Below, in pieces: positions 53,094-63,026 of a stretch of 64,000 bases of DNA (the stretch's first letter is position 1; each line of letters begins with the position of its first letter). Both the position numbers and the translations under genes were made by a program. The DNA is from an uncultured Clostridia bacterium (GTDB lineage: Bacteria; Bacillota; Clostridia; Oscillospirales; CAG-382), in assembly GCA_947630765.1 (NCBI GenBank), contig CANRIX010000002.1:39387-103386 (forward strand). Direction: 5' to 3'. Under the pieces are notes generated by a model. That model saw only the letters and a list, made by a program, of their open reading frames with translations, did not search any database and was not told where the DNA came from.

Positions 53094-55202
53094 TTACCGT
53101 ACCCCGAACAGCAGATCCCCGTAGGTCGGGAACGGCCAAACGTCGGCGGCGGTGAGCGTTTCCGCTTCGTCCGCGGCGGCGCGGAGGACGTCCATGGCGG
53201 GGAGCAGTTCGTCGCGGATCGCGAACGCTTCGGCGTCGACGTCGGCGGACGAGGAAAGCGATTGTTCGACCTGCGAAAGCGCCTCGGCGCGTTCGGCGAT
53301 CTGCGCGGTCAGCGCGGACAGTTTGTGCAGAAGCGATTTTTCGCCTGTGCAGTCCAGCGTTTCGTCGAACGCCTTTTTCGCCGACGCGGCGGACGCGACG
53401 GAGGCGGCGTAGCGCCCGACGGCGGGCAGGATCTCGCGCTTGGCCATGTCGACCATCGTGCGTGCCTCGATGCGGACGGTCTTGCAGTAGTTCTCCATCA
53501 TGATCTCGCACCGGCTCTTCATCTCGTCCTCGGTGTACACCTTGTGCGCGGTCAGCATCGCGACGTTTTTGGCGTCCAGCAGGTGCGGAATGCTGTCCGG
53601 CGTGGTGCGGAGGTTGAGCAGACCGCGAACCTCGGTGGCTTCCTTGATCCACGCGTCGTCGTACCCGTTGCCGTTGAAGATGATGCGCTTGTGGTCGCGG
53701 ACGGTCTCCTGAATGAGCGTGTGCAGGGACGCGTTGAAGTCCGCGCTGCCTTCCAGCCGGTCGGCGAACTGCTTGAGCGATTCGGCGACGGCACTGTTGA
53801 GCATGATGTTCGCGCAGGCGATGCTGTTGGACGAACCGACCATGCGGAACTCGAACTTGTTGCCGGTGAACGCGAAGGGGGACGTGCGGTTGCGGTCGGT
53901 CGTGTCCCGCGTGAAGCGCGGCAGGACGTGGACGCCTAACTTCATCTGGGTCTTTTCCGCACCGCTGTAGGGCCTGTCGTTCTCGATCGCGTCCAGCACG
54001 GCGGTCAGTTCGTCGCCGAGAAAGACCGAAATGACCGCAGGAGGCGCCTCGTTCGCGCCGAGCCGGTGGTCGTTGCCCGCCGTCGCGACCGAAAGCCGCA
54101 GCAGGTCCTGGTAGTCGTCCACCGCCTTGAGGACCGCGCAGAGGAACAGCAGGAACTGCGCGTTCTCGTAGGGCGTTTCGCCGGGCGTCAGCAGGTTGAC
54201 CCCGGTGTCCGTCGCGATCGACCAGTTGTTGTGCTTGCCGGAGCCGTTGACGCCGGCGAACGGCTTTTCATGCAGCAGGCAGACCAGCCCGTGCCGGGAA
54301 GCGACCTTCTGCATGATCTCCATGGTCAGCTGGTTGTGGTCGGTGGCGATGTTGGTGGTCGTGTAGATGGGCGCGAGCTCGTGCTGCGCGGGCGCGACCT
54401 CGTTGTGCTCGGTCTTGGCGAGGATGCCCAATTGCCAGAGTTCCCGGTTCAGGTCCTCCATATAGGCGGCGACGCGGGGCTTGATCGTGCCGAAGTAGTG
54501 GTCGTCGAGCTCCTGTCCCTTGGGCGGTTTGGCGCCGAACAGCGTCCGCCCGGTGTAGATGAGGTCCTTCCTTTTATTGTACATCTCCCGGTCCACGAGG
54601 AAGTATTCCTGCTCCGGGCCGACCGACGTCCGCACGCACTTGACGCTGTCGTTGCCGAACAGCTTCAAAATCCGCATCGCCTGCCGGTTGAGCGCTTCCA
54701 TCGAACGCAGCAGCGGGGTCTTCTTGTCCAGCGCGTGTCCGCCGTAGGAGCAGAACGCGGTCGGAATGCAGAGCGTCCTGTCCTTGATGAACGCGAAGGA
54801 GGTCGGGTCCCACGCGGTGTAGCCCCGCGCTTCAAACGTCGCGCGCAGACCGCCCGACGGGAAAGACGAAGCGTCCGGCTCGCCTTTGATGAGCTCCTTG
54901 CCGGAAAACTCCATGATGACCCGCCCGTCCGGCGCAGGGGAGATGAAGCTGTCGTGTTTTTCGGCGGTCACGCCGGTCATCGGCTGGAACCAGTGGGTGT
55001 AGTGGGTCGCGCCCTGCTCCACCGCCCAGTCCTTCATCGCTTCGGCGACCGCGTTTGCGACCGAAAGGTCCAGCGTCGCGCCCTCGTCGATGGTCTTTTT
55101 CAGCGAGCGGTAGGTCTGCGCCGACAGCCGTGCCTTCATGATGCGTTCGTCAAAGACTTTGCTGCCGAACAGCTCCGTGACCGCTTCCCGTTCTTTTTCC
55201 AT
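53094..55202 (-). CDS. glnN: Glutamine synthetase type III
   Basis: 702 aa from ATG 55202, nine bases after AAAGGA on the minus strand; upstream in-frame codons are leader RNA. Type III (GSIII-1) GS, a dodecamer making glutamine from glutamate, ammonia and ATP. Signatures: GPEQEYFLVD, KTEHNEVAPAQHELAPIYTT, HEKPFAGVNGSGKHNNWS and NRTSPFAFTGNKFEFRMVGS. Length 700 aa fits GSIII and excludes the 440-aa type I form. The leader has a consensus promoter, an A1/G4-hexaloop hairpin and an intrinsic terminator, which suggests antiterminator control (see findings). Confidence 0.97.
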   Translation of the reverse strand: MEKEREAVTELFGSKVFDERIMKARLSAQTYRSLKKTIDEGATLDLSVANAVAEAMKDWAVEQGATHYTHWFQPMTGVTAEKHDSFISPAPDGRVIMEFSGKELIKGEPDASSFPSGGLRATFEARGYTAWDPTSFAFIKDRTLCIPTAFCSYGGHALDKKTPLLRSMEALNRQAMRILKLFGNDSVKCVRTSVGPEQEYFLVDREMYNKRKDLIYTGRTLFGAKPPKGQELDDHYFGTIKPRVAAYMEDLNRELWQLGILAKTEHNEVAPAQHELAPIYTTTNIATDHNQLTMEIMQKVASRHGLVCLLHEKPFAGVNGSGKHNNWSIATDTGVNLLTPGETPYENAQFLLFLCAVLKAVDDYQDLLRLSVATAGNDHRLGANEAPPAVISVFLGDELTAVLDAIENDRPYSGAEKTQMKLGVHVLPRFTRDTTDRNRTSPFAFTGNKFEFRMVGSSNSIACANIMLNSAVAESLKQFADRLEGSADFNASLHTLIQETVRDHKRIIFNGNGYDDAWIKEATEVRGLLNLRTTPDSIPHLLDAKNVAMLTAHKVYTEDEMKSRCEIMMENYCKTVRIEARTMVDMAKREILPAVGRYAASVASAASAKKAFDETLDCTGEKSLLHKLSALTAQIAERAEALSQVEQSLSSSADVDAEAFAIRDELLPAMDVLRAAADEAETLTAADVWPFPTYGDLLFGVR

Positions 55203-55236: not shown

Positions 55237-55300
55237 AAAAAAGCAGGGACGCCCCGAAAGCGCCGCAAGCGATGCGGTACGTTTCGCGAGACGTCCTTGC
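55237..55300 (-). terminator. Leader terminator (attenuator) of glnN
   Basis: Minus-strand RNA GCAAGGACG ... CGTCCCTGC followed by TTTTTT (55242-55237): 8 of 9 pairs form, around an inner CCGCA-TCGCT-TGCGG hairpin. It lies between the promoter and the start codon, so read-through must be controlled. Confidence 0.75.
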
Positions 55301-55303
55301 CTC
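55288..55303 (-). promoter_or_regulatory. ANTAR-type antiterminator hairpin of glnN
   Basis: RNA GAGGC-AAGGAC-GTCTC: 5-bp stem (one G-U) and a six-base loop with A at position 1 and G at position 4, as recognised by ANTAR proteins. The loop and 3' arm are also the 5' arm of the terminator GCAAGGACG, so the two folds exclude each other. It starts a few bases after the expected transcription start. Confidence 0.6.
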
Positions 55304-55312
55304 TCTGCTGGC

Positions 55313-55341
55313 AGTATACACCCTTTTTGACGGTTTGTCAA
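55313..55341 (-). promoter_or_regulatory. glnN promoter
   Basis: Minus strand TTGACA (55341-55336), 17-bp spacer, TATACT (55318-55313). Confidence 0.9.
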
Positions 55342-55455: not shown

Positions 55456-55485
55456 TTGACAAAGCGTCTGTGCGCGTGCTATACT
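55456..55485 (+). promoter_or_regulatory. Promoter of the glutamate synthase operon
   Basis: TTGACA (55456-55461), 18-bp spacer, TATACT (55480-55485); expected start of transcription near 55492. Confidence 0.85.
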
Positions 55486-55491
55486 GTGGAA

Positions 55492-55511
55492 CGTGAGCAA
55501 CGGCGTTCACG
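55492..55511 (+). promoter_or_regulatory. ANTAR-type antiterminator hairpin of the glutamate synthase operon
   Basis: CGTGAGC-AACGGC-GTTCACG: 7-bp stem with one G-U pair and a six-base loop with A1 and G4. The 3' half (55503-55510) is also the outer 5' arm of the downstream terminator. A regulator with an ANTAR domain is encoded at the end of the same operon. Confidence 0.68.
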
Positions 55512-55565
55512 GCGCAGGGCGGGGAAGTGCATCGGCAGTCCCGTCCCGCCCGTGGACGCTTTTTT
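55503..55565 (+). terminator. Leader terminator (attenuator) of the glutamate synthase operon
   Basis: GCGTTCAC (55503-55510) pairs with GTGGACGC (55552-55559) and GGGCGGG (55517-55523) with CCCGCCC (55545-55551); TTTTTT follows at once. It precedes the first start codon by 28 bases. Confidence 0.8.
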
Positions 55566-55592
55566 CCGAAGAGGACAGAAAGGAAACCACTT

Positions 55593-56687
55593 ATGAAACC
55601 ATTGGAAGGACAGGTCCGTATCCCGTCCGGCTGCGCCATTTCCGCGGTGATCGCCAAGGACGGGGCACGGATGTCGGGAAGGACCGTCATCGAAAGCATG
55701 AAGCCCATGCACGAGCGCTCCAACGGGTTGGGCGGCGGATTCGCGGGATACGGCATCTACCCGGAGTACCGCGACCTGTACGCGTTGCATCTTTTCTATC
55801 AGGACCGCGAGAGCCGCAGGCAGGGGGAAGAACTGCTGCGGGAATCGTTCGAGGTCGTGCAGGCGGAGGACATTCCGATCCGCAAGATCCCCGCGATCAC
55901 GGATATCCCGATCATCAAGCGGTATTTCGTCGCCCCGCTGCAGTCGCTTTTGTCACGCCTGCAGCTGGACGAGGAGGAGTTCGTCGTCCGCACGGTCATG
56001 CGCATCAATACGACGCTCGACGGCGCGTACGTCTTTTCCAGCGGGAAGAACATGGGGACCTTCAAGGCGGTCGGCTTCCCGGAGGACGTCGGGGTGTTCT
56101 ACCGATTGGAAGAATACGAAGGGTACTCCTGGACGGCGCACGGGCGCTACCCGACCAACACCCCCGGCTGGTGGGGCGGGGCGCACCCGTTCACCCTGCT
56201 CGACCGCTCGGTCGTGCATAACGGCGAGATCTCGTCCTACGACGCGAACCGGCGGTTCATCGAGATGTTCGGCTACCAATGCACCCTGCAGACGGACACC
56301 GAGGTCATCACCTACATCGCGGACTATCTGATGCGCCGGAAGGGGTTGTCCGCTTCGGAAACGGCGTCGGTCGTCGCCGCGCCGTTCTGGTCCACGATCG
56401 AGCGGAAGGAGCCGGAGGAGCGGGAGAAGCTGACCTGGCTTCGGACGGTCTTTTCCAGCCTGCTGATCACCGGACCGTTCTCCATCGTGCTCGGCTATAC
56501 CGGCGGACTTATGGCGCTCAACGACCGGCTCAAACTGCGCAGCATGGTCGTCGGCGAAAAGGGCGAAAAGGTGTACATCGCCAGCGAGGAAGCCGCCATA
56601 CGCGCCATGGAGCCGGAAGCGGAGAACATCTGGGCGCCGGCTGGCGGGGAGCCGGTCATCGTGCAAGTGAAAGAAGGTGCGTTCTGA
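55593..56687 (+). CDS. Glutamate synthase, glutamine amidotransferase subunit (class II)
   Basis: 364 aa from ATG 55593 after GACAGAAAGGAAACCAC; the ORF-track start is inside the terminator. Class II glutaminase fold: IPSGCAISAVIAKDGARMSG with the presumed nucleophile Cys14, HGRYPTNTPGWWGGAHPFTL, LLDRSVVHNGEISSYDANRR and TDTEVITYIADYLMRR. It supplies ammonia from glutamine to the synthase subunit. In archaeal-type systems this domain is a separate protein, as here. Stop overlaps the next ATG (TGATG). Confidence 0.92.
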   Translation: MKPLEGQVRIPSGCAISAVIAKDGARMSGRTVIESMKPMHERSNGLGGGFAGYGIYPEYRDLYALHLFYQDRESRRQGEELLRESFEVVQAEDIPIRKIPAITDIPIIKRYFVAPLQSLLSRLQLDEEEFVVRTVMRINTTLDGAYVFSSGKNMGTFKAVGFPEDVGVFYRLEEYEGYSWTAHGRYPTNTPGWWGGAHPFTLLDRSVVHNGEISSYDANRRFIEMFGYQCTLQTDTEVITYIADYLMRRKGLSASETASVVAAPFWSTIERKEPEEREKLTWLRTVFSSLLITGPFSIVLGYTGGLMALNDRLKLRSMVVGEKGEKVYIASEEAAIRAMEPEAENIWAPAGGEPVIVQVKEGAF

Positions 56688-58192
56688 TGGGAATCGAATA
56701 CCTGACCCCGGAATTTGAGGTCCTTCGCAACCCGGACCGCTGTATCGCCTGTCGCGTCTGCGAACGGCAGTGCGCCAACGAGGTGCATTTCTACGACCCC
56801 GACGACGGGAAGATGCACTGCGACGAAAGCAAGTGCGTGGACTGCCAGCGGTGCGTTTCGCTCTGCCCGACGCACGCGTTGAAGATCGTCCGAAACGAGC
56901 AGGTCTTTCGCGAAAACGCCAACTGGCAGGCGGACACGATTCGCGAGATCTATAAGCAGGCGTCCAGCGGGGGCGTCCTGCTGTCCTCGATGGGTAACCC
57001 GAAGCCGTTCCCGATCTATTGGGATAAGCTGCTGCTGAACGCTTCGCAGGTGACGAACCCGCCGATCGACCCGCTGCGCGAGCCGATGGAAACGCGGGTG
57101 TTTCTCGGCAAGAAGCCGACCGACTGCGTCCGCGACGAAAACGGGAAGCTGAAAACCGATCTCCCGCCCCAGCTGACGCTTTCCATGCCGGTCCTGTTTT
57201 CGGCGATGAGCTACGGCTCGATCAGCTACAACGCCCACGAGAGCCTCGCCCGGGCGGCGACGGAGCTCGGCATCTGCTACAACACCGGCGAGGGCGGTCT
57301 GCACGAGGATTTCTACCGCTACGGTCCGAACACGATCGTGCAGGTCGCGTCCGGGCGGTTCGGCGTGCACGAGGCGTACCTGAATGCGGGCGCTGCGATC
57401 GAGATCAAGATGGGGCAGGGCGCGAAGCCCGGCATCGGCGGACACCTGCCCGGCGCGAAGATCGTCGGCGACGTCTCCCGCACCCGCATGATCCCGGAGG
57501 GGTCCGACGCGATCTCGCCCGCCCCGCACCACGACATTTACTCCATCGAGGATCTGCGGCAATTGGTCTATTCGCTCAAGGAAGCGACCTGCTACCGCAA
57601 GCCGGTCATCGTCAAGGTCGCCGCCGTGCATAATATCGCCGCCATCGCCAGCGGCATCGCCCGCAGCGGCGCGGACATCATCGCCATCGACGGCTTCCGC
57701 GGCGGCACCGGCGCGGCGCCGACCCGCATCCGCGACAACGTCGGCATTCCGATCGAACTTGCGCTCGCCAGCGTGGACCAACGTCTGCGCGACGAGGGCA
57801 TTCGCGACCAGGTGTCCTTGGTCGTCGGCGGAAGTATCCGCAGTGCGGCGGACGTCGTCAAAGCGGTGGCGCTCGGCGCGGACGCCTGCTATATCGCGAC
57901 GGCGGCGCTGCTCGCGCTCGGCTGTCACCTCTGCCGCACCTGCCAGACCGGCAAGTGCAACTGGGGGATCGCGACCCAGCGCCCGGAACTGGTCAAACGG
58001 CTCAATCCCGCCGTCGGCAGCGAGCGACTGGTCAACCTGATGACCGCTTGGCGGCACGAGATCATGGAGATCATGGGCGGAATGGGCATCAATTCCATCG
58101 AAGCCCTGCGGGGCAACCGCCTGATGCTGCGGGGCGTCGGACTCAACGGAAAGGAGCTGGAGATCCTCGGGGTCTCCCACGCGGGACAATGA
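56687..58192 (+). CDS. Glutamate synthase, FMN/Fe-S synthase subunit (archaeal type)
   Basis: 501 aa from ATG 56687; the ORF-track 637-aa version extends into the previous gene. N-terminal ferredoxin domain with two 4Fe-4S motifs (CIACRVCERQCANE; CVDCQRCVSLCPTHALK), then the FMN-binding TIM barrel (MSYGSISYNAHESLARAATE; EIKMGQGAKPGIGGHLPGAK; DGFRGGTGAAPTR; GADACYIATAALLALGCHLC) and a C-terminal cluster CHLCRTCQTGKCNWG. It condenses 2-oxoglutarate and ammonia to glutamate using reduced electron carrier. Confidence 0.95.
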   Translation: MGIEYLTPEFEVLRNPDRCIACRVCERQCANEVHFYDPDDGKMHCDESKCVDCQRCVSLCPTHALKIVRNEQVFRENANWQADTIREIYKQASSGGVLLSSMGNPKPFPIYWDKLLLNASQVTNPPIDPLREPMETRVFLGKKPTDCVRDENGKLKTDLPPQLTLSMPVLFSAMSYGSISYNAHESLARAATELGICYNTGEGGLHEDFYRYGPNTIVQVASGRFGVHEAYLNAGAAIEIKMGQGAKPGIGGHLPGAKIVGDVSRTRMIPEGSDAISPAPHHDIYSIEDLRQLVYSLKEATCYRKPVIVKVAAVHNIAAIASGIARSGADIIAIDGFRGGTGAAPTRIRDNVGIPIELALASVDQRLRDEGIRDQVSLVVGGSIRSAADVVKAVALGADACYIATAALLALGCHLCRTCQTGKCNWGIATQRPELVKRLNPAVGSERLVNLMTAWRHEIMEIMGGMGINSIEALRGNRLMLRGVGLNGKELEILGVSHAGQ

Positions 58193-58629
58193 AACGAGTG
58201 TATGTCAACGAGGACTGGTGTCTCGGCTGTCACCTGTGCGAATACAACTGCGCATTCGCCAATTCCGGCGTTTCGGACATGGCGAAGGCGCTGAAAAACA
58301 AGCCGATCTTCCCCCGCATCCGCGTCGAGGAGGACGGGAAGATCTCCTACGCGGTGTCCTGCCGCCATTGCGAGGACCCGATCTGCGTGCGAAGCTGCAT
58401 CTCCGGCGCCCTTTCGGTGAAGGACGGTGCGGTGTGCATCGACCGCGAGCGGTGCGTCGGGTGTCTGACCTGCGTGCTGGTCTGCCCGTACGGCGCGGTG
58501 TCGCAGAACGGGGACGGCGTGGTCCAGAAGTGCGAACTGTGCCTGCAAAACAGCTTCGGTGCGCCCGCCTGCGTGCAGGGCTGCCCGAACCGGGCGATCG
58601 TCTATGAGGAACGGGGGGAAGCCGAATGA
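58189..58629 (+). CDS. Polyferredoxin-type electron-transfer subunit
   Basis: 146 aa from ATG 58189 (ATGA overlap with the previous stop). Four Cys clusters in the pattern of DMSO-reductase-B/HycB-like proteins: WCLGCHLCEYNCAFA, CRHCEDPICVRSC, CVGCLTCVLVCPYGAV and CELCLQNSFGAPACVQGCP. Carries electrons to the synthase, probably from the adjacent FAD oxidoreductase. Overlaps it by four bases. Confidence 0.92.
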   Translation: MKRVYVNEDWCLGCHLCEYNCAFANSGVSDMAKALKNKPIFPRIRVEEDGKISYAVSCRHCEDPICVRSCISGALSVKDGAVCIDRERCVGCLTCVLVCPYGAVSQNGDGVVQKCELCLQNSFGAPACVQGCPNRAIVYEERGEAE

Positions 58630-59882
58630 GCAAGCAGAAGCGTTACGTCATCGTCGGCAACGGCGTCGCCGCGGCCGGCTGCATCGAGGGGATCCGCTCG
58701 GTCGACCCGGACGGACCCATCACGGTGGTTTCGGCGGAGCCGTACCCGGTCTACTGCCGTCCGCTGATTTCCTATTGCCTCGAAGGCAAGGCGTCCCCCG
58801 AGCGGATGAACTACCGCCCGGCGGATTTCTACGAAACCAACGGCTGCGCCGTGCGATACGGCGAAAAGGCGCTCTCCCTCGACCCGGCGGGGCATACCGT
58901 TTCGCTGGACGGCGGGGAAGTCCTGCCCTACGACGCGCTGTGCGTCTGCACGGGGTCAAGCCCGTTCGTCCCGCCGATGGAAGGGCTGGACGGCGTCGAA
59001 AAGAAGTGCACCTTCCTGACGCTCGACGACATGAAAACGCTCGAAACCTTCCTGACGCCGGACGCGAAGGTGCTGATCATCGGCGCGGGGCTGATCGGGC
59101 TGAAGTGCGCCGAGGGGTTACGGGACCGCGTCGCGGACATCGCCGTGTGCGACCTTGCGGACCGGGTGCTTTCGAGCATCCTCGACGCGGACTGCGCGAA
59201 GATCATGCAGGAGCACCTCGAAAGGAACGGACTGCGCTTCCTGCTCGGGGACAGCGTGGAACGGTTCGACGGGAACGTCGCGCACTTCCGTTCCGGGAAA
59301 ACCGAGGCGTTCGACGTGCTGGTGCTGGCGGTCGGCGTTCGCGCGAACCTCGCGCTCGTCAAGGACGCCGGCGGGGAGACCGGGCGCGGCGTCGCCGTGG
59401 ATACGCGGATGCGCACGACCCTGCCGGACGTGTATGCCGCCGGGGACTGCGCCGAGGGGCTTGACAGCTCCTGCGGGACGCGGCGGGTGCTCGCCATTCT
59501 GCCGAACGCTTACGCGCAGGGACGCACGGCGGGGAAGAACATGGCGGGCGGATCGGACGAGCTGACCGACGCGATCCCGATGAACGCCATCGGCTTCTTC
59601 GGACTGCACGCCCTGACCGCCGGCAGTTACTACACGCCGGAGCAGGGCGGGGAGGTCTACGAGGAACGCGGGGACGGCAAGATCCGCCGCCTGTTCACGA
59701 AGGACGGTCTGCTGACCGGGTTTATCCTGATCGGCGACGTGGAACGGGCGGGCATTTACACGTCCCTGATCCGCAAAAAGCAGCCGCTCGCGGAGCTGGA
59801 TTTTGAACTTTTGAAAAAAAGTCCGACGTTTCTCGCTTTTGGCAAAGAAAAACGTGGACATTTCTTCGGAGGTGTGGTATAA
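58626..59882 (+). CDS. FAD-dependent NAD(P)H oxidoreductase of the glutamate synthase operon
   Basis: 418 aa. Two Rossmann folds: YVIVGNGVAAAGCIEGIRSV (FAD) and KVLIIGAGLIGLKCAEGLRD (NAD(P)H), and DVYAAGDCAEGLDSSCGTRR (FAD contact). PYPVYCRPLISYCLEGKASP is typical of NADH:rubredoxin/nitrite reductase-like flavoproteins. It probably passes electrons from NAD(P)H through the polyferredoxin to the synthase, replacing the GltD subunit. Stop is directly followed by the TTG start of the next gene. Confidence 0.9.
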   Translation: MSKQKRYVIVGNGVAAAGCIEGIRSVDPDGPITVVSAEPYPVYCRPLISYCLEGKASPERMNYRPADFYETNGCAVRYGEKALSLDPAGHTVSLDGGEVLPYDALCVCTGSSPFVPPMEGLDGVEKKCTFLTLDDMKTLETFLTPDAKVLIIGAGLIGLKCAEGLRDRVADIAVCDLADRVLSSILDADCAKIMQEHLERNGLRFLLGDSVERFDGNVAHFRSGKTEAFDVLVLAVGVRANLALVKDAGGETGRGVAVDTRMRTTLPDVYAAGDCAEGLDSSCGTRRVLAILPNAYAQGRTAGKNMAGGSDELTDAIPMNAIGFFGLHALTAGSYYTPEQGGEVYEERGDGKIRRLFTKDGLLTGFILIGDVERAGIYTSLIRKKQPLAELDFELLKKSPTFLAFGKEKRGHFFGGVV

Positions 59883-60608
59883 TTGAAGATCATAGAGGCA
59901 AACGGGCTGGACTGCCGGGAGATCAACGAGGCGGTCCGGCAGTCGGACGGGGTCTGTGAGATCCGGGGCTGTCTCGGACAGCGGTTCATCGCCGCAGGCG
60001 CCGGAGAGAACTTCCGCCTGACGGTTCGCGGGGTGCCGGGCAACGCGCTCGGCGCGTACCTCAACGGTGCGGAGATTTACACGGAGGGCAACGCGCAGGA
60101 CGCGGTCGGCGACACGATGAACGCCGGACGCATCGTCGTCAACGGCAGCATCGGCGACGCCGCCGGATACGCCATGCGCGGCGGCATGATCCTGGTTCGT
60201 GGGAGCGCCGGCTACCGCGCGGGAATCCACATGAAGGCGTACCGGGAAAAACTGCCGGTCATGGTCATCGGCGGGCGCACGGGCAGCTTCTTAGGCGAAT
60301 ACCAGGCGGGCGGCGTCATCGTCGTGCTGGGTCTGCACGACGACGGAAAGGACATCGTCGGCAACTTCCCCTGCACGGGTATGCACGGCGGCAGGCTCTT
60401 CCTGCGGTCCCGCTGCGAGAGGATCCGCTTCCCGAAGCAGGTCCATACCCATCTCGCGTCGGACGCGGAAAAGCAGGAGCTGCAAACCTATCTGACCCCC
60501 TTCTGCGAGGCGTTCGGGTACTCGCTCGAAACCCTGCTCGACGCGGACTACACGGTCGTCACCCCGGACAGCAAAAACCCCTATCGCCAGATGTACGTGG
60601 CGAACTGA
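59883..60608 (+). CDS. Glutamate synthase GXGXG-domain subunit
   Basis: 241 aa from TTG 59883, nine bases after CGGAGGTG. The glycine-rich right-handed beta-helix typical of the C-terminal third of GltB: GNALGAYLNGAEIYTEGNAQ, VNGSIGDAAGYAMRGGMILV and GGRTGSFLGEYQAGGVIVVL, then FPCTGMHGGRLFLR. In archaeal-type systems it is a separate subunit that organises the ammonia channel. Translation appears coupled to the upstream stop. Confidence 0.93.
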   Translation: MKIIEANGLDCREINEAVRQSDGVCEIRGCLGQRFIAAGAGENFRLTVRGVPGNALGAYLNGAEIYTEGNAQDAVGDTMNAGRIVVNGSIGDAAGYAMRGGMILVRGSAGYRAGIHMKAYREKLPVMVIGGRTGSFLGEYQAGGVIVVLGLHDDGKDIVGNFPCTGMHGGRLFLRSRCERIRFPKQVHTHLASDAEKQELQTYLTPFCEAFGYSLETLLDADYTVVTPDSKNPYRQMYVAN

Positions 60609-60626: not shown

Positions 60627-61829
60627 ATGGACACTTCGGCGGAGGAGATCATGCAGTACGTCCGGGAGGAGGACGTGAAATTCATTCGGCTCGCGTTCTG
60701 CGACGTGTTCGGACGGATGAAGAACCTGTCCGTGCAGCCGGGCGAGCTGTCCCGCGCGTTCGCGGGCGGCATCCCGTTCAACCCCGCCCCGGTGCGGGGG
60801 TTCGGCGGGGAAGCGTGCGAGGAGCTGTTCCTCTGCCCGGACCCGTCCACCATTTCGGTCCTGCCGTGGCGCCCGGAGCACGGGCGGGTGGTGCGCATGT
60901 TCTGTGCGCTTCGCCGTGCAGACGGGACGGTCTCGGACGCGGACACGCGTTCGCTGCTGCGGGAAGCGGCAGCCGACGCGGAGAAGTTTGGCGTGACCTT
61001 CACGTTCGGCTCCCGCATGGAATTCTACCTGTTTGAGACCGACGAAAACGGCGAACCGACGGTCCGCCCGTTCGACCGTGCCGGGTACATGGACATCGCC
61101 CCGGAGGACAAGGGCGAAAACGTCCGCCGGGAGATCTGCCTGACGCTCGAACGCATGGGGATCCCGCCGGAAAGCTCCCACCACGAGGAGGGTCCCGGGC
61201 AGAACGAGATCGACTTCCGCCACGCCGACCCGCTCGCCGCGGCGGACTACGCGATGACCTTCCGCGCCGTCGTGCGGACCGTCGCGTCCCGCAGCGGGCT
61301 GTACGCCAGTTTTTCCCCCAAACCCCTCGCGGGACAGCCGGGGAACGGGTTCCACGTCCGCTTTTCCGCCCGCCGCGCCGACGGGGAGGACCCGCTTCCC
61401 GCCGCGTCCGCCGGGGTCCTGCGCCGTGCCTGCGAGATGACCGCTTTCCTGAACCCGGAGGAGGCTTCCTACGCCCGCCTCGGCGACCACCGCGCCCCGC
61501 GCTACGTCACTTGGTCGCCCCGGAACCGCAGCCAGCTTCTGCGCGTCCCGTCGTTCGGCGAACGCTGGGCGGAACTGCGCTCGCCGGACCCGACGGCGAA
61601 TCCCTACCTGGTTTTCGCCCTGCTGATCCGGGCGGGACTGGAAGGGGTCGCCGCGTCGCTTTCCCTGCCGGACGCGGTCGAACGCGACCTGCGCACCGCC
61701 CCCGCCAACCTGCTGGATGCCCTCGGTCGCCTGCCGGACAGCCTTTCGGACGCCCGTGCGCTCGCACGGGAGTCGGCGTTTATCCGTGCGCATCTGCCGG
61801 AGGCGGTCGTCCGCGCGTACTGCGGTTGA
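60627..61829 (+). CDS. Type I-like glutamine synthetase, short form
   Basis: 400 aa, ATG 60627 after AACGAAAGGAAGAACC. GS fold: RLAFCDVFGRMKNLSVQPGE, GSRMEFYLFETDENG (Glu metal ligand), HHEEGPGQNEIDFRHADPLA, GQPGNGFHVRFS, WSPRNRSQLLRVPSFGERWA and ELRSPDPTANPYL. It is about 40 residues shorter than GlnA and lacks the usual GSGMHxHxS wording at the nucleotide loop (here GNGFHVRFS), so it may have altered specificity or a regulatory role. It is the second GS at this locus beside glnN. Confidence 0.88.
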   Translation: MDTSAEEIMQYVREEDVKFIRLAFCDVFGRMKNLSVQPGELSRAFAGGIPFNPAPVRGFGGEACEELFLCPDPSTISVLPWRPEHGRVVRMFCALRRADGTVSDADTRSLLREAAADAEKFGVTFTFGSRMEFYLFETDENGEPTVRPFDRAGYMDIAPEDKGENVRREICLTLERMGIPPESSHHEEGPGQNEIDFRHADPLAAADYAMTFRAVVRTVASRSGLYASFSPKPLAGQPGNGFHVRFSARRADGEDPLPAASAGVLRRACEMTAFLNPEEASYARLGDHRAPRYVTWSPRNRSQLLRVPSFGERWAELRSPDPTANPYLVFALLIRAGLEGVAASLSLPDAVERDLRTAPANLLDALGRLPDSLSDARALARESAFIRAHLPEAVVRAYCG

Positions 61830-61861: not shown

Positions 61862-62455
61862 ATGGCGATCCCGCGAATGCCGCAGGAGTGCGTCTACAGC
61901 GTTCTCCTGGTTTCGGCGTCGGAAAAATTCAATCGTTCCCTGCGTGCGCTGCTGCCGGAAGAGACGTTCGTCACGGTCGTGACGGCGACGGACGTCGGTA
62001 CGGCGCGCCGTCTGCTGCTCGGGCGCCGCTTCGACCTGCTGCTCGTCAATGCCCCTCTGCCGGACGAATTCGGCGACCGCTTCGCGCAATCGGTTTCCTT
62101 GGACGGCGAAACGGGGGTGCTGCTGTTCGTCAAGGCGGAGCAGTACGACGAAATTTCGCTGTCGCTTCTGCGGTTCGGCGTCCTCACCCTCGCGAAGCCC
62201 GCGTCCCCGCACGCGGTCTCCCAGGCGCTTCGCCTGCTTTGCGCGACCCGGGAACGGCTGCGCGTAGCACAGGAACGCAACGAAGCGCTGGAGAAGAAGA
62301 TGGAGGAGGTGCGGCTGGTCAGCCGCGCGAAGGCGGCGCTTTCCGCACGGTACGGTATGACCGAAGCGGACGCGCACCGCTACATCGAAAAGCAGGCCAT
62401 GGACCGCTGTCTGACCAGGCGCGAAGTGGCGCAGGAGATCCTCGGGCCGGACTGA
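61862..62455 (+). CDS. ANTAR-domain antiterminator with pseudo-receiver domain
   Basis: 197 aa from ATG 61862 after GGGGAGGCGAGAGGA. Residues 10-125 have a receiver-like fold, but the phosphoacceptor is replaced (FDLLLVNAPLPDEFG has Asn where Asp is expected) and the N-terminal acidic pair is missing, so input is probably not phosphorylation. The coiled coil ERNEALEKKMEEVRLVSRAK leads to the ANTAR domain (AALSARYGMTEADAHRYIEK; RREVAQEIL), which binds paired hexaloop hairpins in RNA to prevent termination. Being last in a GS/GOGAT operon, it most likely controls that operon and glnN. Confidence 0.92.
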   Translation: MAIPRMPQECVYSVLLVSASEKFNRSLRALLPEETFVTVVTATDVGTARRLLLGRRFDLLLVNAPLPDEFGDRFAQSVSLDGETGVLLFVKAEQYDEISLSLLRFGVLTLAKPASPHAVSQALRLLCATRERLRVAQERNEALEKKMEEVRLVSRAKAALSARYGMTEADAHRYIEKQAMDRCLTRREVAQEILGPD

Positions 62456-62477: not shown

Positions 62478-63026
62478 ATGCTCTACATCATGCGGCACGG
62501 TCGGACGGACTGGAACGACAAGGGAAAACTGCAGGGGCGGACCGACGTCCCGCTCAACGCGGACGGACGCGCCATGGCGGAACAGGCGGCGAAAGCCTGC
62601 GCGGAAACGCATTTCGACGTCTGCTTTTGCTCACCGCTTCGCCGTGCGAAGGAAACGGCGGAGATCCTTTTGCGGGGCAGGGACGTCCCGCTCCTGACGG
62701 ACGACAGGCTGACCGAAATGGGGTTCGGTGTCTACGAAGGCATGGAAAACGGCACCATGCCCCCCGACTGCCCGGTCCGCACGTTGTTCCGCGACCCGGA
62801 AAACTACCGGCCGGACGGCGGGGCGGAAAGCCTTTCGGCGCTGTACGAGCGGACCGGGGAATTCCTGCGGCAGGCGGTTTTCCCGCTGCTGGAGCAGGGG
62901 AAGGACGTCCTGCTCGTCGGGCACGGGGCGATGAACGCGAGCATCGTCTGCCAAGTCAGGGGCGTCCCGGTCGGTCAGTTCTGGAGCGCCGGGCTGGAGC
63001 AGTGCAAGCTGTTGCGGCTTCTTTGA
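62478..63026 (+). CDS. Histidine phosphatase family protein (phosphoglycerate mutase-like)
   Basis: 182 aa, ATG 62478 after TCGGGAGGAAGT. Catalytic RHG motif (LYIMRHGRTDWNDKGKLQGR), second Arg in CSPLRRAKETAEILL, and distal His in VLLVGHGAMN. Family members include phosphoglycerate mutase, cobalamin/ribazole phosphatase and others; residues do not fix the substrate. Starts 22 bases after the ANTAR gene. Confidence 0.9.
   Translation: MLYIMRHGRTDWNDKGKLQGRTDVPLNADGRAMAEQAAKACAETHFDVCFCSPLRRAKETAEILLRGRDVPLLTDDRLTEMGFGVYEGMENGTMPPDCPVRTLFRDPENYRPDGGAESLSALYERTGEFLRQAVFPLLEQGKDVLLVGHGAMNASIVCQVRGVPVGQFWSAGLEQCKLLRLL

Follow-up and report, generated by a model that had tools for sequence, protein, structure and literature searches.

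Single-hexaloop ANTAR-type attenuators as probable switches of the glutamate synthase and glutamine synthetase III genes in gut Clostridia

The leaders of the glutamate synthase (glt) operon and of the divergent glnN gene of an uncultured Clostridia bacterium are very likely transcription attenuators under the control of the ANTAR protein that the glt operon encodes, in a variant that uses a single hexaloop. Both lie in a 64-kb window, that is, the whole 64,000-nt stretch of DNA analysed, from a metagenome-assembled genome of 2.11 Mb that is 97% complete. On the anatomical features testable here, the element belongs to the broad kind of ANTAR attenuators; new relative to known members are the one hexaloop at +1, the pairing with glnN, the pseudo-receiver and the glutamine synthetase (GS)-like neighbour. 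The original prediction of an ANTAR-type attenuator with autoregulation in the glt leader is supported by the fit of the loop, the mutually exclusive and covarying helices, the clustering of the ANTAR gene with glt and the co-occurrence of leader and ANTAR genes; from these, we infer binding by the ANTAR protein.

The glt leader contains two competing structures (Table 1). The stem of the first hairpin, P1 (55492-55498 paired with 55505-55511), encloses the hexaloop AACGGC (55499-55504), with A at loop position 1 and G at position 4 (A1/G4). P1 begins seven nucleotides after the -10 box, at about the predicted +1. The 5′ arm of the terminator runs from about 55502, in the second half of the P1 loop, its 3′ arm ends at about 55559, and the first glt ATG is at 55593. 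Because this 3′ arm repeats the P1 5′ arm, P1 and the terminator compete for one middle strand, and folding and covariation both indicate that the two are mutually exclusive. The minimum fold of the whole leader is the terminator (-41.6 kcal/mol, z -3.9; 0 of 200 shuffles as low), and the first 24 nt of the transcript fold alone as P1 (-9.9 kcal/mol). The A1/G4 hairpin at the transcript start, as predicted originally, was confirmed by direct reading and by the folding of these 24 nt; its sharing of the 3′ half with an intrinsic terminator arm followed by U6 was verified by sequence, folding and covariation. The placing of the ANTAR gene last in the operon was almost correct: a histidine-phosphatase gene begins 22 nt further on (62478), and relatives differ in the gene that follows ANTAR. 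The phosphatase gene is perhaps co-transcribed with ANTAR in this species only.

Table 1. Features of the glt-glnN region, in window positions
Feature	Position	Strand	Basis
glt promoter TTGACA-18-TATACT, TG before -10	55456..55485	+	11/12 consensus
P1, single ANTAR-type hexaloop hairpin CGTGAGC-AACGGC-GTTCACG (antiterminator hairpin)	55492..55511	+	sequence, folding, scan, covariation in 74 relatives
glt intrinsic terminator, 5′ arm = P1 loop and 3′ strand, U6 55560-55565	55502..55565	+	sequence, folding, scan, covariation in 74 relatives
Glutamate synthase, glutamine amidotransferase subunit	55593..56687	+	Pfam GATase_2
Glutamate synthase FMN/ferredoxin subunit	56687..58192	+	Pfam Glu_synthase 2.6e-139
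4Fe-4S ferredoxin subunit	58189..58629	+	Pfam Fer4_11
NAD(P)/FAD oxidoreductase subunit	58626..59882	+	Pfam Pyr_redox_2
Glutamate synthase GXGXG subunit	59883..60608	+	Pfam GXGXG
GlnA-like protein without catalytic E-flap Glu, candidate sensor partner	60627..61829	+	Pfam, residue alignment, below NCBIfam GlnA cut-off, adjoins ANTAR in relatives
Pseudo-receiver ANTAR antiterminator (predicted)	61862..62455	+	Pfam ANTAR 3.2e-15, residue conservation, predicted structure
Histidine-phosphatase gene	62478..63026	+	22 nt after ANTAR stop
glnN promoter TTGACA-17-TATACT	55313..55341	-	promoter reading
Second single ANTAR-type hexaloop hairpin GAGGC-AAGGAC-GTCTC, glnN leader	55288..55303	-	scan; homologous leaders before relatives' glnN
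glnN leader terminator, 5′ arm overlapping hexaloop, U6 55242-55237	55237..55300	-	folding, scan
glnN, type III glutamine synthetase (GSIII), second target	53094..55202	-	Pfam GSIII_N 1.8e-81

An unbiased scan covered both strands of the window and looked for A1/G4 hexaloop hairpins, with a stem of 5 bp or more, in which the loop or the 3′ strand can pair with a 3′ arm followed by a T-run. It returned exactly two matches, the glt leader and the glnN leader at 55298(-), both of which precede nitrogen-assimilation genes; ten shuffled windows gave 1,0,0,0,0,0,0,0,0,0 matches. The original prediction had overlooked the similarly built leader of divergent glnN. The scan is relied on here because the R2 covariance model, which recovers the glnN leader, had that sequence in its training set; the R1 model, built from glt leaders, did not recover the glnN leader of its own genome. 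Covariance searches of this genome found the element before glt and glnN only, and no hexaloop hairpin of at least 5 bp was seen upstream of its second GSIII gene. An R2 match at G000:C27:18397 proved to be an ordinary terminator with no P1; the remaining weak matches in the genome lay inside genes or lacked the design.

Regions upstream of the first glt gene were collected from about 100 relatives, drawn from the genus up to the order and from named genome records. Almost every one of them has a promoter and a hairpin near AAATGAGC-AAAGGC-GTTCATTT, together with an inner hairpin and an arm near AAATGAGCGCCTTTTTT. The glt leader recurs in about 85 relatives, with a conserved promoter of the form TTGACA-17-TATAAT, and the attenuator pattern is conserved across gut Clostridia. 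P1 begins 6-9 nt past the -10 box in 73 of the 77 glt leaders that have a good promoter. In 74 aligned glt leaders, P1 is 89.5% paired, with two-sided changes in 6 of 8 pairs, and the terminator is 94.7% paired, with such changes in 10 of 15 pairs (92 cells versus 22.7 in shuffled alignments); the covariation of both helices is well above shuffled and slid controls. Both helices also covary in 60 leaders of other genes. Most loops read AANG(G/A)(C/T), and 190 of 191 leaders have a closing C-G pair; A1/G4 was a requirement of the scan, and the remaining loop positions and the closing pair are conserved beyond it. A1 and G4 are also invariant in the alignment collected by gene homology and then by hairpin (alignment A1). 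Two sets of matches were rejected: a 12-base consensus pattern was too loose (169 matches versus 219 in the reversed control), and weak R1 matches in relatives (L137, L139, L141, L142) lacked a promoter, some of them lying inside genes.

The first gene of this glt operon occurs in only 4 of the 24 genomes of the genus, own included, and matches its counterpart in the genus mate G020 at 78% and those of other families at 77-78%. This patchy distribution and similarity pattern suggest horizontal transfer or repeated loss.

The leaders define a regulon centred on nitrogen assimilation. Scanning 1.48 Mb of sequence from relatives gave 195 matches: 84 before glt, 82 before glnN, 1 before glnA and 28 before other genes, 4 of the 28 being discarded as unconvincing. 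These other genes include asnA, pyrG, purC, carA and amtB (by Pfam) and glmS, gdhA, asnB, dapF and large gltB (by NCBIfam), as well as a PEP-synthase-like gene; covariance matches in relatives also occur before purB and a COG2308-type ATP-grasp gene. A phylum-wide search added matches before glnB, amtB, glnA, glnQ, asnB and glnN, the genes being named by sequence. Most of the target enzymes produce or use glutamine, ammonia or aspartate. The same leader (L159, L140; L157, L035) also stands before genes for circularly permuted ATP-grasp (COG2308-type) and large PEP-synthase-like proteins, neither an obvious nitrogen gene.

Tandem attenuators, each with its own hexaloop and terminator, are found in 19 of the 63 loci with a glnN attenuator (including L009, L011, L051, L055, L056, L057, L071, L073, L082 and L154). 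Two phylum-level relatives (L174, L175) likewise carry tandem single-hexaloop attenuators, and the pair in L175 precedes a P-II (glnB) gene. Separate terminators for each copy bear on a reading at the DNA level, in which a repressor or activator would bind the conserved block as an operator at the transcript start. The block does lie directly 3′ of the -10 box and is an imperfect palindrome; yet a G-U pair beside the closing pair (GC/GT) is conserved in 167 of 191 leaders, and G-C/A-U/G-U exchanges fit RNA pairing and not DNA symmetry; covariation also ties the loop and 3′ strand to a T-tailed arm some distance away. An operator is thus highly improbable, and an RNA attenuator is the preferred reading.

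The number of hexaloops sets this attenuator apart. The canonical ANTAR target, as defined in the searches of 2012 and 2021, consists of two hexaloop hairpins, the second overlapping the terminator (PMC3369931, PMC8164766), and in the eut system both are needed for antitermination (PMC3369931, PMC8934654). The authors of the EutV work reduced the minimal binding motif to one hexaloop and did not settle where such single sites act (PMC8934654). The glt leader lacks the arrangement of the Ramesh 2012 definition, two A1/G4 hairpins with a short linker. With P1 beginning at about +1, no space is left for a hairpin before it, and an upstream A1/G4 hexaloop at a plausible linker distance was found in 5 of 191 leaders versus 8 of 18 matches in control loci, which were ten loci picked solely for a EutV-like ANTAR gene and scanned at slightly looser settings. 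The dual-hexaloop leaders of the control have the same loop type (AAGGGC, AATGGC, AACGGC).

A second hexaloop could also lie downstream, and the published definition of ANTAR targets as dual hairpins gives reason to expect one. Formally, 32 of 188 leaders do have a second A1/G4 hexaloop with a stem of 3 bp or more, above the 19.6 in shuffled sequences, but this surplus comes from the region being rich in hairpins: of the 215 hexaloop hairpins with 4 bp or more that lie 3′ of P1, 19 combine A1 with G4, against 18.7 expected from the separate frequencies of the two. The motif GCATCGGC, noted originally within the terminator loop, is present there; as a second hexaloop it fails, because it folds as a tetraloop (UGC-AUCG-GCA). 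A canonical dual-hexaloop target, with its second hexaloop at GCATCGGC or upstream, is therefore unlikely. The original prediction had found no clear second hexaloop in this leader, which is borne out by the absence of one from nearly the whole leader family, and because of that absence the leader is not classed as a canonical dual-hexaloop target. On anatomy, the single-hexaloop element would work like the antitermination hairpin P2 alone.

Genome content links the leader to ANTAR proteins. In its own genome, the glt operon encodes the single ANTAR gene above the family cut-off, and in 53 loci having ANTAR, the gene lies in the same cluster as glt, directly after the glnA-like gene (with one gap of 478 nt). 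Among 80 relatives, ANTAR above the cut-off is present in 21 of the 22 genomes that match the leader strongly versus 16 of the other 58 (p 2e-8), and in a second draw of 299 phylum genomes, which has a few genomes in common with the first, in 17 of 20 versus 128 of 279 (p 6e-4); both p-values ignore shared ancestry. Leader-like matches without ANTAR were found in G053 and G065 of the first sample and in G224, G295 and G316 of the phylum sample (3 of 20). These exceptions may be assembly gaps in draft genomes or point to other regulators. In G053, the leader-like element (G053:C40:10495-10567) lies before purB.

A few leader-bearing genomes without an ANTAR match, together with a coherent glutamine/ammonia set of targets, would also suit a protein-free metabolite riboswitch or a leader-peptide attenuator responding to glutamine or ammonium. 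What is conserved, however, is a 20-nt hairpin, which is too small to be a typical aptamer; Rfam searches yielded no credible match at either gathering or relaxed thresholds; and the conserved loop agrees with the ANTAR signature, with strong co-occurrence of ANTAR genes. Control of this kind is accordingly improbable, and ANTAR-dependent attenuation remains the favoured reading.

The predicted structure of the ANTAR protein (pLDDT 94) has its top full-length TM-score, 0.74, with RNA-bound EutV (6ww6); Rv1626 and AmiR are also among its best structural matches. Compared with EutV, Asn replaces the phosphoacceptor Asp54 in 46 of 49 ANTAR proteins and in the window. The acidic pocket of the receiver is lost, its residues being S or A. 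In the RNA-binding part, the K143 and K147 positions are Arg, Met172 is invariant, and the Tyr164 position is His, as in AmiR; the position of R142, a residue that matters for RNA affinity, is Ile or Val. Judged by alignment, the protein keeps most RNA-contact positions. Its receiver would not be phosphorylatable in the usual way, so the signal would arrive by protein-protein contact or a ligand.

The GlnA-like protein encoded next to ANTAR is degenerate at its active site. The catalytic E-flap Glu is replaced in 55 of 55 sequences (Lys in 54, Arg in the window), Asn264 is replaced (N264P in the window), and one flap residue is deleted; D50N and E129R are confined to the window lineage. The protein scores 277 versus the NCBIfam GlnA cut-off of 429. 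It evolves faster than its neighbours, since its identity to relatives is about 55-62%, lower than the mostly 73-80% of glt and glnN. An attractive reading is that it may be a sensor that controls ANTAR through contact; the ‘dead enzyme’ could instead have a different amine substrate. The wider proposal, that a single 5′-terminal hexaloop suffices for a glutamine/ammonium regulon across Clostridia and that ANTAR is gated by a dead GS reading glutamine/glutamate, is tentative and on balance doubtful.

The following model would account for these features. The first 20 nt of the transcript would form one A1/G4 hexaloop hairpin. About 45 nt on, the polymerase would copy the 5′ strand of this hairpin again, and the copy would capture the loop and 3′ strand to form the stronger terminator; because the terminator is stronger than the hairpin, termination would be the default. 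When nitrogen is limiting, ANTAR, probably as a dimer, would hold the hairpin and keep its 3′ strand out of the terminator, allowing read-through into glt, the glnA-like gene and ANTAR itself (autoregulation), and into glnN. The single hairpin would thus play the P2 role of the EutV system without an upstream recruitment hairpin, and the adjacent, catalytically degenerate GlnA would be the leading candidate for the signal partner. Some ANTAR targets overlap ribosome sites (PMC3369931, PMC8164766), so ANTAR might act mainly via translation or mRNA stability, with the terminator as constitutive leakage control. Here, the ribosome site of the glt leader lies about 70 nt 3′ of P1, outside the terminator, and the conserved feature is the overlap of antiterminator and terminator, which makes such a mode very unlikely.

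Comparison with known systems places this predicted antitermination mechanism among its relatives. As in the EutV/eutP-type system of Enterococcus faecalis, an A1/G4 hexaloop is exclusive with an intrinsic terminator before nitrogen genes, and the protein is a response-regulator-type ANTAR protein with the same fold in the predicted model (PMC3369931, PMC8934654). Unlike that system, there is one hexaloop and not two, the hairpin is at +1 with no upstream recruitment hairpin, and the receiver, without phosphoacceptor Asp and acidic pocket, implies no kinase partner. AmiR-AmiC of Pseudomonas aeruginosa offers a second parallel: AmiR is a pseudo-receiver ANTAR protein with His at the EutV Y164 position and is regulated through protein contact, as proposed here. 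However, the partner in that system, AmiC, is a differently folded amide receptor, whereas a degenerate glutamine synthetase is the candidate here, and a dual hairpin is described for the AmiR leader (PMC3369931).

Clostridial precedents also exist. Glutamate/glutamine synthase ANTAR regulons were predicted in Desulfotomaculum (PMC3369931); a nitR antiterminator of C. acetobutylicum is cited in PMC4676874; and the C. thermocellum glt cluster Clo1313_2030-2036 ends in an ANTAR gene and is co-expressed with a glutamine synthetase (PMC4676874). These share with the present system the linkage of an ANTAR gene to glt/gln and predicted RNA targets before nitrogen genes, but the published predictions were built on the dual-hairpin model. 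In the ANTAR literature cited here, no description was found of the +1 single-hexaloop class, the pseudo-receiver or the GlnA without an E-flap Glu. In the GlnR/TnrA-FBI-GS circuit of Bacillus (PMC9249791), a glutamine synthetase likewise stands beside, and possibly controls, a nitrogen regulator; there the regulators bind DNA and the GS is active, whereas here a predicted RNA-binding regulator is accompanied by a GS-like protein that has lost the E-flap Glu.

Why two hexaloops are needed, and whether a single site can serve in antitermination, are questions that the structural study of EutV did not settle (PMC8934654). Nearly 190 natural leaders that appear to manage with one hexaloop, at +1, bear on them, with natural comparisons available between glt and glnN and between single and tandem arrangements. 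The leaders also delimit a nitrogen regulon for little-studied Clostridia of the gut and rumen, and they suggest a candidate sensor open to testing, the GS-like protein that lacks the E-flap glutamate. If true, a GS-gated ANTAR protein would be the RNA-level counterpart of the GS-GlnR circuit of Bacillus.
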